DNA of 21,435 bases, taken from positions 1 to 21,435 of the IMG/VR virus record IMGVR_UViG_3300025646_000451; one strand, 5' to 3'. Below the pieces are notes generated by a model. The model did no database searches, had not been told where the DNA came from, and saw nothing but the letters and a program-made list of their open reading frames with translations. Below, piece after piece: positions 7,077 to 12,457 of the stretch (position 1 is its first letter; the number at the start of each line of letters is the position of its first letter). The DNA is from a virus. Position numbers and translations under genes: made by a program.

Positions 7077-10000
7077 ATGGCTATCGTACAAATCTCTAAA
7101 ATACAACACAGATCAGGTAACTTAGTTGATTTACCTCAACTTGATGAAGCAGAGTTTGGCTTTGCTTCTGATGCCAAGCGTGTTTTCATCGGTAAAACAC
7201 AAAGCGGCTTAGAAAATATTGAGGTATTGACTTCTTATTCTGAAATCAGTTTCAGCCAGATTGACGGAGCTATCGGCAATCTGAACATCACTGCGCCTGT
7301 TGGCAACGGTGAAGTATTATCCTTCGATGGTACAGATTGGGTTAACAAAGGCGGGAACGCAGGTGGATACATCAATCTTGGAGACATCAGTAATCTTTCT
7401 ATCGGCGGTGGTTCTATTGGTTATGTTCTAGAAACAGACGGTCTAGGCAATTTAGCTTGGACTTCTAAGGGCACAACAACTGCGTTCATCGAAAACATCA
7501 GCCTGGCTAATCCTGGCGTAGTTACGACTACTGAAGACAACTTTTTAACAAATGGTGCCGCAGTAACTATTACTAACTGCCCCGGCATGACAGATATCAA
7601 CGGCGGAACTTATTACGCAAACGTACTAACTTCTGATACTTTCAGTTTGTACACTGATCAAATTTTATCTACCCCCTTAGACACAAGTTCATTTAACGCA
7701 TTTTCATATACTTCTGTAACAGCTACAACGGCTGCTACAAACACTATTACAGTAGGCGATTCATCATTATTTGCACTAAACATTCCTGTTAGGTTTTTAG
7801 GTGATGTCACAGGAACTGAATTAGACAATATTAGTACTTTTTATATTAAATCTAAACCATCAGGTACCACGATTACAGTTTCTAATGAGCTTTATGCTAA
7901 TGGTGTAGCAGGTAATGTTTTTCCGGTTAACAATGTAACTGGCTTGAGTGCTAATGTATACGGCACTACTGGCCGTTTAGTTTCACCATTAGGTGGAACA
8001 GGTGGCGGGAATGGCGCAGCCGGCTCAAACACAAGTGTGCAGTACAACTATAACAACGTGTTGACAGGTGACGGGGATTTTACTTGGGACTTTAGTGCTA
8101 GTAAAACTCTTACAGTAAACGGAAACGCAAACGTAGGAAATTTAAACGGTACCGGATCTGTAACAGCATCTAGACTTATATCAAACGTTGCAACAGGAAC
8201 AACTCCCCTAGTAGTTAATTCTACAACACGTGTAGCTAACTTAAACGTAGCGTATTCAAACGTAGCAGATCATTCAGTAGTTGGAAACTTAACAACAGGC
8301 AACTATTTTCCAGCGTTAGTGTCTAGTTCTGGAACAGGTAACAAAGCACTCAACGTGAGTGGTAGTTACGTATTCGATACTGCTAATGCTAAATTTGTAG
8401 CCGGTAATGTTACTGCAACATATGCAATAACAGGTTCTACTTTGACAGGTGGAATCACTACTAATGCACAACCCAATATTACTAGCGTGGGTACATTAGC
8501 AGGATTAGAAGTAGCAGGTGATATCACTCCTGACGCAAACGTAACTTATAACCTAGGTAATAATACATACAGATTTAATGATCTTTATCTGTCAGGTAGC
8601 ACAATCTATCTAGGTGCTCAACAGATCACTTCAAACTTAACAACAACTACTTTTAGCGGTAACATTTCTGCTAACGTAATCGCCGGCAATATTCAAAGCA
8701 CAGGCTCCGCTACTATGTCTTCTGTAACAGTTACAGGAAACTTAAGCGCAGGTAATATTTCAACAAGTGGAATTTTAGCAGTAACAGGTAATGCTAACGT
8801 AGGTAATTTAGGTGCTACTGGAGTCGTTGCGACAACTGTTTCAGGTACTTTAACTACAAACGCACAACCCAACATTACTTCGGTAGGCACTCTTACATCG
8901 TTGGGAGTTACTGGAAGTGTAACAGGTGGAAACTTAATTACATCTGGTAATGCTAACGTAGGAACTTTAAAAGTATCTGGAACCTCAGATTTAGGTGCAG
9001 TTGGCAATGTCACAATCACTGGTGGTACAGCAAATTATATTCTAAAAACTGATGGTGCAGGTAACTTAAGTTGGACTAATCCAGACGGCGGGTATTTCTT
9101 ACATACACAAGTTTCTGCAAGTAATGTTTGGACAGTTAATCATAATCTTAATAGAAGATATGTAGGTGTTGAAGCAATCGATGCTAATGGCATTTCTTAT
9201 ACCGGTAGATACGATTATCCAACTATTGATTACGTAGATGCTAATACACTCACAATGACTTGGACTACTTCACTTGCTGGTTATGCCGCAATTACAGGCG
9301 GCGGTACTAACATCAATAGCGTTACTGTTGGGAATTCTACTCCTGGTGGAGTTAACACTCAAGTTCAATTTAATGACGCTGGTGCCCTAGCAGGTAATAA
9401 CGGTCTTGTATTTGATAAAACAACTGGTACATTAACTGTAACTGCAATTAGCGGTAACGGTTCTGCATTAACATCAATTACTGGTGCTAATGTAACAGGT
9501 GCTGTAAGTTACGCAACTACTGCTAATAGTGTAGCAGGTGGTAATGTAAGTGGAGCAGTAGCTTACGCAACTACTGCTAATAGTGTAGCAGGTGGTAATG
9601 TAAGTGGAGCAGTAGCTTACGCAACTACTGCTAATAGTGTTGCAGGTGCAAATGTTTCTGGTGTTGTTGCTAATGCAACTTATGCAACAAGTGCAGGTAG
9701 TGCTACATCAGCAACAACAGCAGGCACTGTAACAACTGCGGCACAACCTAACATCACATCAGTGGGTACATTGACTTCTCTAGGTGTGACTGGTGCTGTA
9801 ACAGCAGGAAACGTTTATGCTAACTCTGGTACTGTTAGAGCAACTACATTACGTGGTACCGCACTAACTACCGGTGCTAACACAACAGCAGGTACAGTAA
9901 CAGGTAACTGGACTCTAACAGCTGGTTCAAGATTACAAGCAACATACGCTGACTTAGCAGAATACTATGAAGGCGACAAGATTTATGAACCGGGTACTGT

Positions 10001-10316
10001 ATTAGAGTTTGGTGGCGAGAAAGAAGTCACATTAGCAGGTGAAGAGACATTCAAACTTGCAGGTGTAGTATCTACTAACCCTGCATATGTAATGAACAGC
10101 GAATGTCAGGGCAATAAAGTTGCTATCGCACTGCAAGGTAGATGCCCAGTCAAAGTAAAAGGTCCTGTATCTAAGGGTGACATGATGGTAAGTGCTGGTA
10201 ACGGTTATGCTAAAGCAACTATCATAGCACCAAAGATTGGTACAGTATTAGGTAAATCATTAGAAAACTTTACTGGTGATGAGGGCGTTATTGAGATCGC
10301 TGTCGGCAGATTGTAA
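7077..10316 (+). CDS. Large fibre-like virion protein with repeats and a C-terminal maturation-like domain
   Basis: A 1079-aa protein with the start typical of aquatic phage fibres: IQHRSGNLVDLPQLDEAEFGF followed by RVFIGK (residues 9-40), a likely virion-attachment module. Residues about 140-215 form a beta module of the kind also seen in the 10428 gene. The rest is Gly/Asn/Thr/Val-rich beta-repeat sequence: three copies of AQPNITSVGTL (around bases 8465, 8862 and 9741), two VQFND/VQYNY blocks, and four 18-residue units at 9483-9698. Residues about 952-1079, starting ATYADLAEYYEGD and including EPGTVLEFGG and AGVVSTNPAYVMN, resemble the autoproteolytic Peptidase_G2-like or chaperone-type ends of phage fibres. 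Expected to be a trimeric host-recognition or tail fibre. It has a late promoter and good Shine-Dalgarno. Confidence 0.82.
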   Translation: MAIVQISKIQHRSGNLVDLPQLDEAEFGFASDAKRVFIGKTQSGLENIEVLTSYSEISFSQIDGAIGNLNITAPVGNGEVLSFDGTDWVNKGGNAGGYINLGDISNLSIGGGSIGYVLETDGLGNLAWTSKGTTTAFIENISLANPGVVTTTEDNFLTNGAAVTITNCPGMTDINGGTYYANVLTSDTFSLYTDQILSTPLDTSSFNAFSYTSVTATTAATNTITVGDSSLFALNIPVRFLGDVTGTELDNISTFYIKSKPSGTTITVSNELYANGVAGNVFPVNNVTGLSANVYGTTGRLVSPLGGTGGGNGAAGSNTSVQYNYNNVLTGDGDFTWDFSASKTLTVNGNANVGNLNGTGSVTASRLISNVATGTTPLVVNSTTRVANLNVAYSNVADHSVVGNLTTGNYFPALVSSSGTGNKALNVSGSYVFDTANAKFVAGNVTATYAITGSTLTGGITTNAQPNITSVGTLAGLEVAGDITPDANVTYNLGNNTYRFNDLYLSGSTIYLGAQQITSNLTTTTFSGNISANVIAGNIQSTGSATMSSVTVTGNLSAGNISTSGILAVTGNANVGNLGATGVVATTVSGTLTTNAQPNITSVGTLTSLGVTGSVTGGNLITSGNANVGTLKVSGTSDLGAVGNVTITGGTANYILKTDGAGNLSWTNPDGGYFLHTQVSASNVWTVNHNLNRRYVGVEAIDANGISYTGRYDYPTIDYVDANTLTMTWTTSLAGYAAITGGGTNINSVTVGNSTPGGVNTQVQFNDAGALAGNNGLVFDKTTGTLTVTAISGNGSALTSITGANVTGAVSYATTANSVAGGNVSGAVAYATTANSVAGGNVSGAVAYATTANSVAGANVSGVVANATYATSAGSATSATTAGTVTTAAQPNITSVGTLTSLGVTGAVTAGNVYANSGTVRATTLRGTALTTGANTTAGTVTGNWTLTAGSRLQATYADLAEYYEGDKIYEPGTVLEFGGEKEVTLAGEETFKLAGVVSTNPAYVMNSECQGNKVAIALQGRCPVKVKGPVSKGDMMVSAGNGYAKATIIAPKIGTVLGKSLENFTGDEGVIEIAVGRL
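9483..9698 (+). repeat. Four 54-bp in-frame repeats in the fibre gene
   Basis: Units at 9483-9536, 9537-9590, 9591-9644 and 9645-9698 encode 18 residues each (pattern GGNVSGAVAYATTANSVA). The middle two differ at a single base (GTA/GTT); the outer two have diverged. This indicates recent duplication or gene conversion in the fibre shaft. Confidence 0.92.
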
Positions 10317-10337: not shown

Positions 10338-10345
10338 GATAAATA
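10338..10345 (+). promoter_or_regulatory. Late-type promoter octamer GATAAATA
   Basis: GATAAATA overlaps the right edge of a 14-bp palindrome TTTTTACGTAAAAA (10323-10336, two bases upstream) and begins the transcript whose leader holds three hairpins. The start codon of the downstream gene is 82 bases further on. Confidence 0.75.
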
Positions 10346-10427
10346 TAATCATACACTCTCATGGTGAGAGTTTATGCAGTTACCCACTGCGTAGCGGATA
10401 GAACCCGCACTTAATAGGAGAAAACAA
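10346..10427 (+). other. Structured 5' leader: three tandem hairpins plus a 17-codon upstream ORF
   Basis: Hairpin 1: ACTCTCA (10355-10361) pairs with TGAGAGT (10365-10371), loop TGG. Hairpin 2: TATGCAGT (10373-10380) pairs with ACTGCGTA (10386-10393) including one T-G pair, loop TACCC. Hairpin 3: GCGG (10394-10397) pairs with CCGC (10405-10408). Only one base lies between hairpins 1 and 2 and none between 2 and 3. An ATG at 10361, in the top of hairpin 1, opens a frame MVRVYAVTHCVADRTRT ending with TAA at 10412-10414, just before the Shine-Dalgarno AGGAG (10416-10420) of the main gene. The pairing is seen directly; a role in mRNA stability or translation control is inferred. Confidence 0.6.
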
Positions 10428-11351
10428 ATGGGACGTCCTTTAAAAATCGCAAAAGCGCAAACCGTAGTCACATTGACTGCAACAGCCGCTACTACTAACA
10501 TCATCACTGTATCAAGCACCGCTGACTTCAGTGCTGGCATGCGTTTCGTAGTAGCATCAAACGTAGGTGGTTTAGTAGCAGGTACTACTTACTGGGTCAA
10601 AGAAATTCTTTCAGGAACAACTTTCTCAGCACTAGTAAATCATCCTTCAGTTCAACCACAAGTATCACCAACTCTTTCAACTACTTCAGGTGGTTCAGTA
10701 GCACTTTCAGTCAACGTTGTTGACTCAGGTTACTCAAACGCTTCAGGTTATGGTATCGTTGGTGGAGACACAGCAATTTATGGTAATCAAGTATTGATCA
10801 CTGCTGTGATCGGTATTGCTGGTGACGGCACAATATCATGTGCAGATGATAGTCCAAACTTAGATGGTGTAGGCACTGACTTTGCAAACACTCTTTCAGA
10901 TGGTTCTGTCGTAACTACAGCAGACGGCACATTCTTAGGTATTATCGATGATATCGCTAATGCTAACGCAGTATTCGCAACATTTCTTGCAAACGCTAGC
11001 GCAAACGTATCTGGATCTGAATGGGTCTATGGTGACGAAGAAGCTGGTTATGTCGTAAGACAAAAAGGTAAAACCAAATACTTGATTCACGGTGCAACAA
11101 CCGGCTTAGAAGTTCAGGCATTTACAGCAGACTATGGTACTACATTATTACCAAATACATTCAGCGTACAAGCAACTTATGCTAACAGTGCTAACACAGG
11201 TGCTTTCAGCTTTAGTGATCACAACGGTGAACTATTCGGTGACGGTACATTAGCTGGTTCTGATCCCGCGTTCTTAACGTTTGGTTCAGCAGAAGCCGCA
11301 GATGCCGCAAATGGTGTTCCTTACCCAGTCGTAACTATCGCAAGCAGTTAA
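10428..11351 (+). CDS. Virion structural protein of the MGRPLKIAK type
   Basis: A 307-aa protein starting MGRPLKIAKAQTVVTLTATA. The N-terminus, the GYGIVGGDTAIYGNQVL block (residues about 107-123) and GYVVRQKGKTKYLI (about 208-221) recall virion proteins of aquatic T4-like phages. Residues about 11-70 form a beta module (ITV then TYWVK and TTFSAL) resembling one in the fibre protein, so the two may share an evolutionary building block. The sequence is Ala/Thr/Gly/Ser-rich with few charges until the middle. A strong Shine-Dalgarno AGGAG and a structured late leader suggest high expression. Function is likely a capsid- or tail-surface component; I cannot say which. Confidence 0.72.
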   Translation: MGRPLKIAKAQTVVTLTATAATTNIITVSSTADFSAGMRFVVASNVGGLVAGTTYWVKEILSGTTFSALVNHPSVQPQVSPTLSTTSGGSVALSVNVVDSGYSNASGYGIVGGDTAIYGNQVLITAVIGIAGDGTISCADDSPNLDGVGTDFANTLSDGSVVTTADGTFLGIIDDIANANAVFATFLANASANVSGSEWVYGDEEAGYVVRQKGKTKYLIHGATTGLEVQAFTADYGTTLLPNTFSVQATYANSANTGAFSFSDHNGELFGDGTLAGSDPAFLTFGSAEAADAANGVPYPVVTIASS

Positions 11352-11715: not shown

Positions 11716-11742
11716 GGAGGGGTCGCAAGACCCTTCCTTTTT
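11716..11742 (+). terminator. Rho-independent terminator ending the rightward late unit
   Basis: A 9-bp stem (11716-11724 with 11729-11737, one G-T pair) with a GCAA tetraloop and T5 (11738-11742). It overlaps by two bases the stop codon of the convergent leftward gene. Read leftward, the stem is not followed by a T run, so it should act mainly on rightward transcription. Confidence 0.88.
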
Positions 11743-12457
11743 ATTTGAATCTTTCGACTAGATAATCTATTAACATTCTACTCATTAGATATTGACTTTC
11801 TATAGTAGTATGATATCCCGGATCTTTGACGCCTACCGGCAAATCATTTGCCTTATCTAATAACGTAAACTTCTCATCGATAAAAGGGCAATATTCTAAG
11901 ATTTCGTTTTCTGGGAAGTTATACACGTAAGGTATTTTAGATTCATGTAATTTGTGGATTGATGCATAAAGACACATCATGTCCTTTATCCTCTCCCAGC
12001 CGAAATCATATATAGTTTCAAAATATTTTTTTATTCCTTCTGTTTTATAATCTATATCTGGAATATCATCGTATAAATTATATGTTAATATGCTGTACAT
12101 GCTATCTGATATTAGGTTAGGTCCTTTCTTACCTGTTATTCCGGAATATGTACTAAATGAATTTCTTTCCCTGTATATAATATCTTGCATAGTATAATCA
12201 TAACATTCTTCTGAAGGCGGTTTAAGAGGTATTTCAGTTCTGTCATAACTAGTAGTGTTAAATAAAATCAAATCAGGTTTGTTAGATACAGCTTCTTCTA
12301 TTTGAAGACATATTCCTAGATTACTCATGCCTCCGCGGGAGTATACTATTAATTCATAGTCTAATACTTTAGCAGTTAATTCAGCAAAATGTGTGTTTGG
12401 ATGAGCAACCGCTGGAGTCATGTAGCTATCTCCACACACTATCATTTTCTTTGTCAT
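11741..12457 (-). CDS. SGNH/GDSL-hydrolase-like protein 2
   Basis: A 238-aa leftward gene, last of its unit. MIVCGDSYMTP gives block I with Ser11; SRGGMSN supplies Gly42/43 and Asn46; LILFNTTSYDR is a block III-type strand with Asn; and KDPGYHT near the C-terminus gives the Asp212-His216 pair of the terminal block. The catalytic set looks more complete than in SGNH-like protein 1. Its start overlaps the Nudix stop by four bases (ATGA), so both are co-translated. SGNH enzymes remove acyl or acetyl groups from lipids or sugars; substrate unknown. No signal peptide, so it acts in the cytoplasm or is packaged. Confidence 0.68.
   Translation of the reverse strand: MTKKMIVCGDSYMTPAVAHPNTHFAELTAKVLDYELIVYSRGGMSNLGICLQIEEAVSNKPDLILFNTTSYDRTEIPLKPPSEECYDYTMQDIIYRERNSFSTYSGITGKKGPNLISDSMYSILTYNLYDDIPDIDYKTEGIKKYFETIYDFGWERIKDMMCLYASIHKLHESKIPYVYNFPENEILEYCPFIDEKFTLLDKANDLPVGVKDPGYHTTIESQYLMSRMLIDYLVERFK

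Follow-up and report, generated by a model that had tools for sequence, protein, structure and literature searches.

The T4 genes whose leaders come closest to the one described here are gene 32, whose product is a single-stranded-DNA-binding protein and whose pseudoknot lies upstream of the start, and gene 43, which is not a late gene. The gene 32 leader pseudoknot serves autogenous repression by gp32, and a 2010 review considered it possibly the sole viral pseudoknot in translation autoregulation (PMC3014915). The gene 43 operator is a single hairpin with a UAAC loop and no evidence of a pseudoknot (PMC3014915). In E. coli, the alpha-operon (uS4) and rpsO (uS15) leaders form pseudoknots that include the ribosome binding site and block initiation by entrapment (PMC10931766).

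The leader considered here lies in a virus record of which 21,435 nucleotides were analysed (the window), and it is a member of the freshwater-2 RNA family. The covariance model of that family, Rfam RF02980, matches over its full length, scoring 73.8 bits where the gathering score is 49.9, and is the sole Rfam match in the window. The traits of the family are all present: the same three hairpins, the conserved sequences UUAUGC, GCGUA and UAGAAC, and a position directly before a Shine-Dalgarno sequence and AUG, the model ending at the AUG, at position 10430. The Rfam structure line differs from our proposal in lacking a pairing between the loop of hairpin 2 and the start codon. In the literature searched we found neither a function for freshwater-2 nor a paper naming the family, whose original description likely lies outside that search. 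The RNA family was thus already known, and what we add to it is the downstream gene family, the late promoter, the association with gp23 and the loop-start pairing.

As at gene 32, this is an mRNA leader of a T4-like phage in which a pseudoknot may control translation (PMC3014915); unlike there, the proposed partner of the loop is the start codon of a virion gene expressed late, and the sequences are different and the hairpins are three. We rejected membership in the gene 32 pseudoknot class, the downstream gene being of a different family. It resembles the gene 43 operator in that a hairpin whose loop is conserved lies close to the ribosome binding site in the mRNA of a T4-type phage (PMC3014915). 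The uS4 and uS15 operators differ in belonging to cellular ribosomal protein operons, and we claim no sequence or structural relation between them and freshwater-2.

The leader and its late transcription unit

The features of the locus in the window are as follows.

10338..10345, + strand: late promoter -10 element GATAAATA of the T4 type (xATAAATA), read from the sequence; spacing and element are common in relatives
10355..10430, + strand: freshwater-2 RNA, Rfam RF02980, whole model 1-84, covariance model match
10355..10371, + strand: hairpin 1, 7 bp, loop of 3, predicted 5'-terminal hairpin of the transcript; sequence free, pairing kept
10361..10414, + strand: 17-codon frame, ATG to TAA; exists in the window, not conserved, not considered a gene
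10373..10393, + strand: hairpin 2, 8 bp, loop of 5, UUAUGCNG...CNGCGUA; its free pair covaries (177/177)
10383..10386, + strand: CCCA in the hairpin 2 loop; proposed partner, UGGG at 10429-10432
10394..10408, + strand: hairpin 3, covarying stem of 4 bp, 7-nt loop NUAGAAC
10416..10420, + strand: Shine-Dalgarno sequence AGGAG, read from the sequence
10428..11351, + strand: MGRP family gene, 307 aa, beta-rich model, probable virion protein; MGRP N-terminus and IVRQKGxxKYLV domain
10429..10432, + strand: UGGG within the start region AUGGGA; proposed partner, the hairpin 2 loop

The three adjacent hairpins of 7, 8 and 4 bp at 10355-10408 had been drawn by a sequence-only reading of the window, and folding bears them out. 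The minimum free energy of 10351-10427 is -22.4 kcal/mol, compared with -12.8 +/- 2.6 for dinucleotide shuffles (z -3.6), and none of 200 such shuffles folded as well. By the same shuffle test, three further late leaders of the window, all of them short, show no structure (z -0.06, -0.54 and 0.02). A nested fold that includes coding sequence (10411-10443) pairs AGGA of the Shine-Dalgarno sequence with UCCU of codons 3-4. By eye, the window and many other leaders lack an upstream GUUC that could pair with the hairpin 3 loop UAGAAC.

Of 198 parsed leaders, 193 have an element of the TAAATA type upstream, most commonly 8-9 nt before hairpin 1, with a second group at 15-19 nt; a handful, L148 and L152 among them, have no room for hairpin 1. 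In T4, late transcripts begin about 6 nt past the promoter element; the hairpins would stand at the 5' end of the mRNA if transcription proceeds here as it does in T4.

The proteins encoded downstream (116-512 aa) can be aligned as a single family: they share an N-terminus of the MGRP or MARx type and an IV(K/R)QKGSxKF domain, with insertions between the two; we therefore rejected the idea that the leader is a mobile module placed before unrelated genes. Structure models of the downstream protein are beta-rich. Two of them had no PDB match at E <= 0.001, and in BFVD only uncharacterised phage proteins matched at that threshold. On the same strand, 104 of 191 loci have the gene for gp23, the major capsid protein, upstream; among the other 87, only 20 extend more than 1.5 kb in that direction. 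The leader in the window is preceded by a tail-fibre-like gene (7077-10316) instead of gp23. The MGRP family protein may have a role in capsid decoration. Direct repeats with a 54-nt period, 60-93% alike, occur at 9429-9698 inside the tail-fibre-like gene. At 11716-11743, after a 109-aa gene, there is a strong terminator-like hairpin, GGAGGGGTCGCAAGACCCTTCC, followed by a T run, which likely ends this late unit.

Conservation among relatives

Two pattern scans of viral contigs yielded at least 160 leaders. Because the scan patterns fix part of the leader sequence, a second set of loci was chosen solely by the beginning of the downstream protein. All of these protein-chosen loci with enough upstream sequence have a leader with hairpin 3, and nearly all have the promoter element and the same hairpin 2. 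The total comparison comprised about 190 related leaders from uncultured T4-like phages, 177 of them distinct and used for pair counts, which were taken at fixed offsets and are thus free of alignment choice.

Of the 177 distinct leaders, 167, 169, 176 and 176 keep the four respective pairs of hairpin 3, where shuffling gives means of 96, 82, 111 and 80, and each position shows several Watson-Crick types; a control register scored below shuffles. In hairpin 2 the free pair is intact in all 177, compared with 82 after shuffling. Hairpin 1 varies freely in sequence and has a pairing score of 14.1, against 9.8 in shuffles of the same stretch. In L246 hairpin 2 reads UACGC/GCGUA, a wobble pair having become Watson-Crick, and L274 has the compensatory variant UACGUA/UACGUA. 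Another, A+T-rich helix replaces hairpin 2 in L244, L245, L247, L290 and L294, in which hairpin 3 and the promoter are kept. These exceptions (L246, L274 and the L244 type), as we read their sequences, speak for structure. With the Rfam match and the compensatory changes in 177 distinct relatives, the case for a leader structure that is maintained in homologues is decisive.

The same bases had also been read as an embedded 17-codon open reading frame, whose TAA (ending at 10414) is one base from the Shine-Dalgarno sequence, and this part of the reading did not survive comparison. The ATG in hairpin 1 is not kept, the commonest offset of an upstream ATG being found in only 15 of 192 leaders, and the AUG inside UUAUGC, set against the reading frame of the gene, falls into each of the three possible frames (69/68/55) and is followed by stops at varied distances. 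Thus, the structural part of the earlier proposal stands and the coding part falls; the frame is, judging from its relatives, an accident of sequence. The reading that these bases are conserved because they encode a regulatory leader peptide has virtually no standing, since start codon, frame and length vary among relatives and its one support is the presence of the frame in the window, and we rejected the frame as a gene on these grounds.

Large records typically carry a single copy of the leader (19 of 20; the remaining record has two). Pattern matches in genome contigs were mostly chance-like, L203 alone passing the full leader test, and a scan for start codons without G after AUG yielded no true leader. 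Searches of annotated phages with blastn and tblastn for the leader or the window's protein gave no relevant match. About 57 leaders (for example L102, L104 and L116) have a longer spacer between hairpin 3 and the Shine-Dalgarno sequence that contains GGACUNCU and could pair with the Shine-Dalgarno sequence (CUUCU/AGGAG, CUCCU/AGGAG, CUA/UAG). A Shine-Dalgarno hairpin of this kind (CUNCU with AGGAG) is suggestive in these relatives and absent from the window.

The hairpin 2 loop and the start codon

The hairpin 2 loop, UUACCCA in the window, is rich in C and can base-pair with AUGGG. Leaders in which AUGG precedes a non-G base were sought with loop content unconstrained; the scan recovered leaders with alanine as the second codon, and their loops differ. 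GCC occurs in loop 2 of 14 of 41 alanine leaders and in none of 145 glycine leaders, and [AU]GC in 7 of 41 and again none of 145. Two cases are clear: the leader L321 (MARPLKIAKAQ), which has the loop AAGCCA among MGRPLKIAKAQ leaders with UACCCA, and AAAUCCAA with GGA versus AACAGCAA with GCU. Testing of the pairing is partly post hoc because the idea arose from sequences included in the extended test set. Pairing of leaders with their own starts exceeded that in all 2000 permutations of starts among leaders. In a protein tree that leaves out the first five residues, we counted 12 gains of GC in loop 2, and 11 of them fall on alanine branches, which make up 25% of the tree length (P about 2e-6, an approximate value because the tree comes from short, divergent proteins with insertions and leaders may recombine).

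The start region is also the best downstream target of loop 2 in about 152 of 184 leaders, and the loop-start duplex is predicted at -4.6 kcal/mol, compared with -2.4 for shuffled loops. The proposed pairing is just 3-5 bp long. It is absent in the L244 type (loop UAAC) and in L274 (loop GAUUUUAA), both of which keep AUGGG, and about half of the alanine leaders are uncompensated, 15 forming a better duplex and 14 a poorer one than when the start is swapped. On balance, the loop of hairpin 2 very probably pairs with the start region UGG(G/C). Covariation thus points to pairing of the leader with the initiation region, as in known operators. Whether repression is the effect of this pairing we would call just short of an even question.

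Possible functions of the leader

The sequence-only reading had suggested a stability element, translational control or an RNA bound by protein, and among these the covariation of loop 2 with codon 2 favours translational control. We consider it an evenly balanced proposition that freshwater-2 acts in cis, as the 5' leader of a late mRNA, and governs the initiation of translation of a capsid-cluster protein. Transcription would start, by analogy with T4, about 6 nt after GATAAATA, such that hairpin 1 comes first in the RNA and the hairpins, all three shown by covariation, stand in succession at its 5' end. The C-rich loop of hairpin 2 would then pair with UGG(G/C), which reaches from the start codon into codon 2, placing a pseudoknot over the start site. 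A putative factor, which might be a ribosomal protein or else a virion or RNA-binding protein of the phage, may read UUAUGC, GCGUA and UAGAAC and either stabilise or undo the pseudoknot, and protein output may in this way be matched to capsid production. Against this mechanism we count Agrobacterium phage Atu_ph07 (L425:4011-5423), in which the same type of gene (MGRPLNKKYF) stands behind CATAAATAC without freshwater-2. Atu_ph07 is the only annotated cultured phage in which we found an MGRP family gene, and tRNA genes and a late promoter-like element precede it. The more specific idea of a pseudoknot switch, in which a loop that covaries with the second codon couples the capsid-cluster protein to virion assembly in a broad group of uncultured T4-like phages, is one we hold tentatively, with doubt outweighing belief.

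Alternatively, the hairpins may function as a 5'-terminal stabiliser that blocks 5'-end-dependent RNase attack, so that the virion mRNA lasts and is highly translated; the loop-start pairing would then be a side feature, or would shape the start site for good initiation. Structure commonly located 8-9 nt past the promoter element, a hairpin 1 in which pairing alone is kept, and a gene that belongs to the capsid cluster are all consistent with this notion. Yet a stabiliser has no need for conserved UUAUGC, GCGUA and NUAGAAC or for covariation between the loop and codon 2, and other late leaders in the window lack such a hairpin. We regard this explanation as rather unlikely.

Less likely still is that the RNA serves chiefly as a binding site where a phage or host protein recognises the conserved core, with start-codon pairing absent or minor, one version being autogenous repression by the MGRP protein itself. 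A conserved core beside covarying stems is typical of protein sites, and the encoded N-terminus is basic and nearly invariant (MGRPLNKK). This explanation leaves the codon 2 covariation unaccounted for, however, and because Atu_ph07 retains its MGRPLNKKYF without the leader, the N-terminus is not kept only for leader binding.

Returning to translational control by loop-start pairing, freshwater-2 would, if the pairing and its effect are confirmed, work like the gene 32, uS4 and uS15 pseudoknots while being a member of none of these groups. It would then represent a further viral case of pseudoknot translation control beside gene 32. Freshwater-2 is one of many RNA families that were found by sequence comparison and have no assigned function. 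Its association with one capsid-cluster late gene, its place at the transcript's 5' end and a candidate pairing between loop and start codon turn it into a testable hypothesis of a translation switch.
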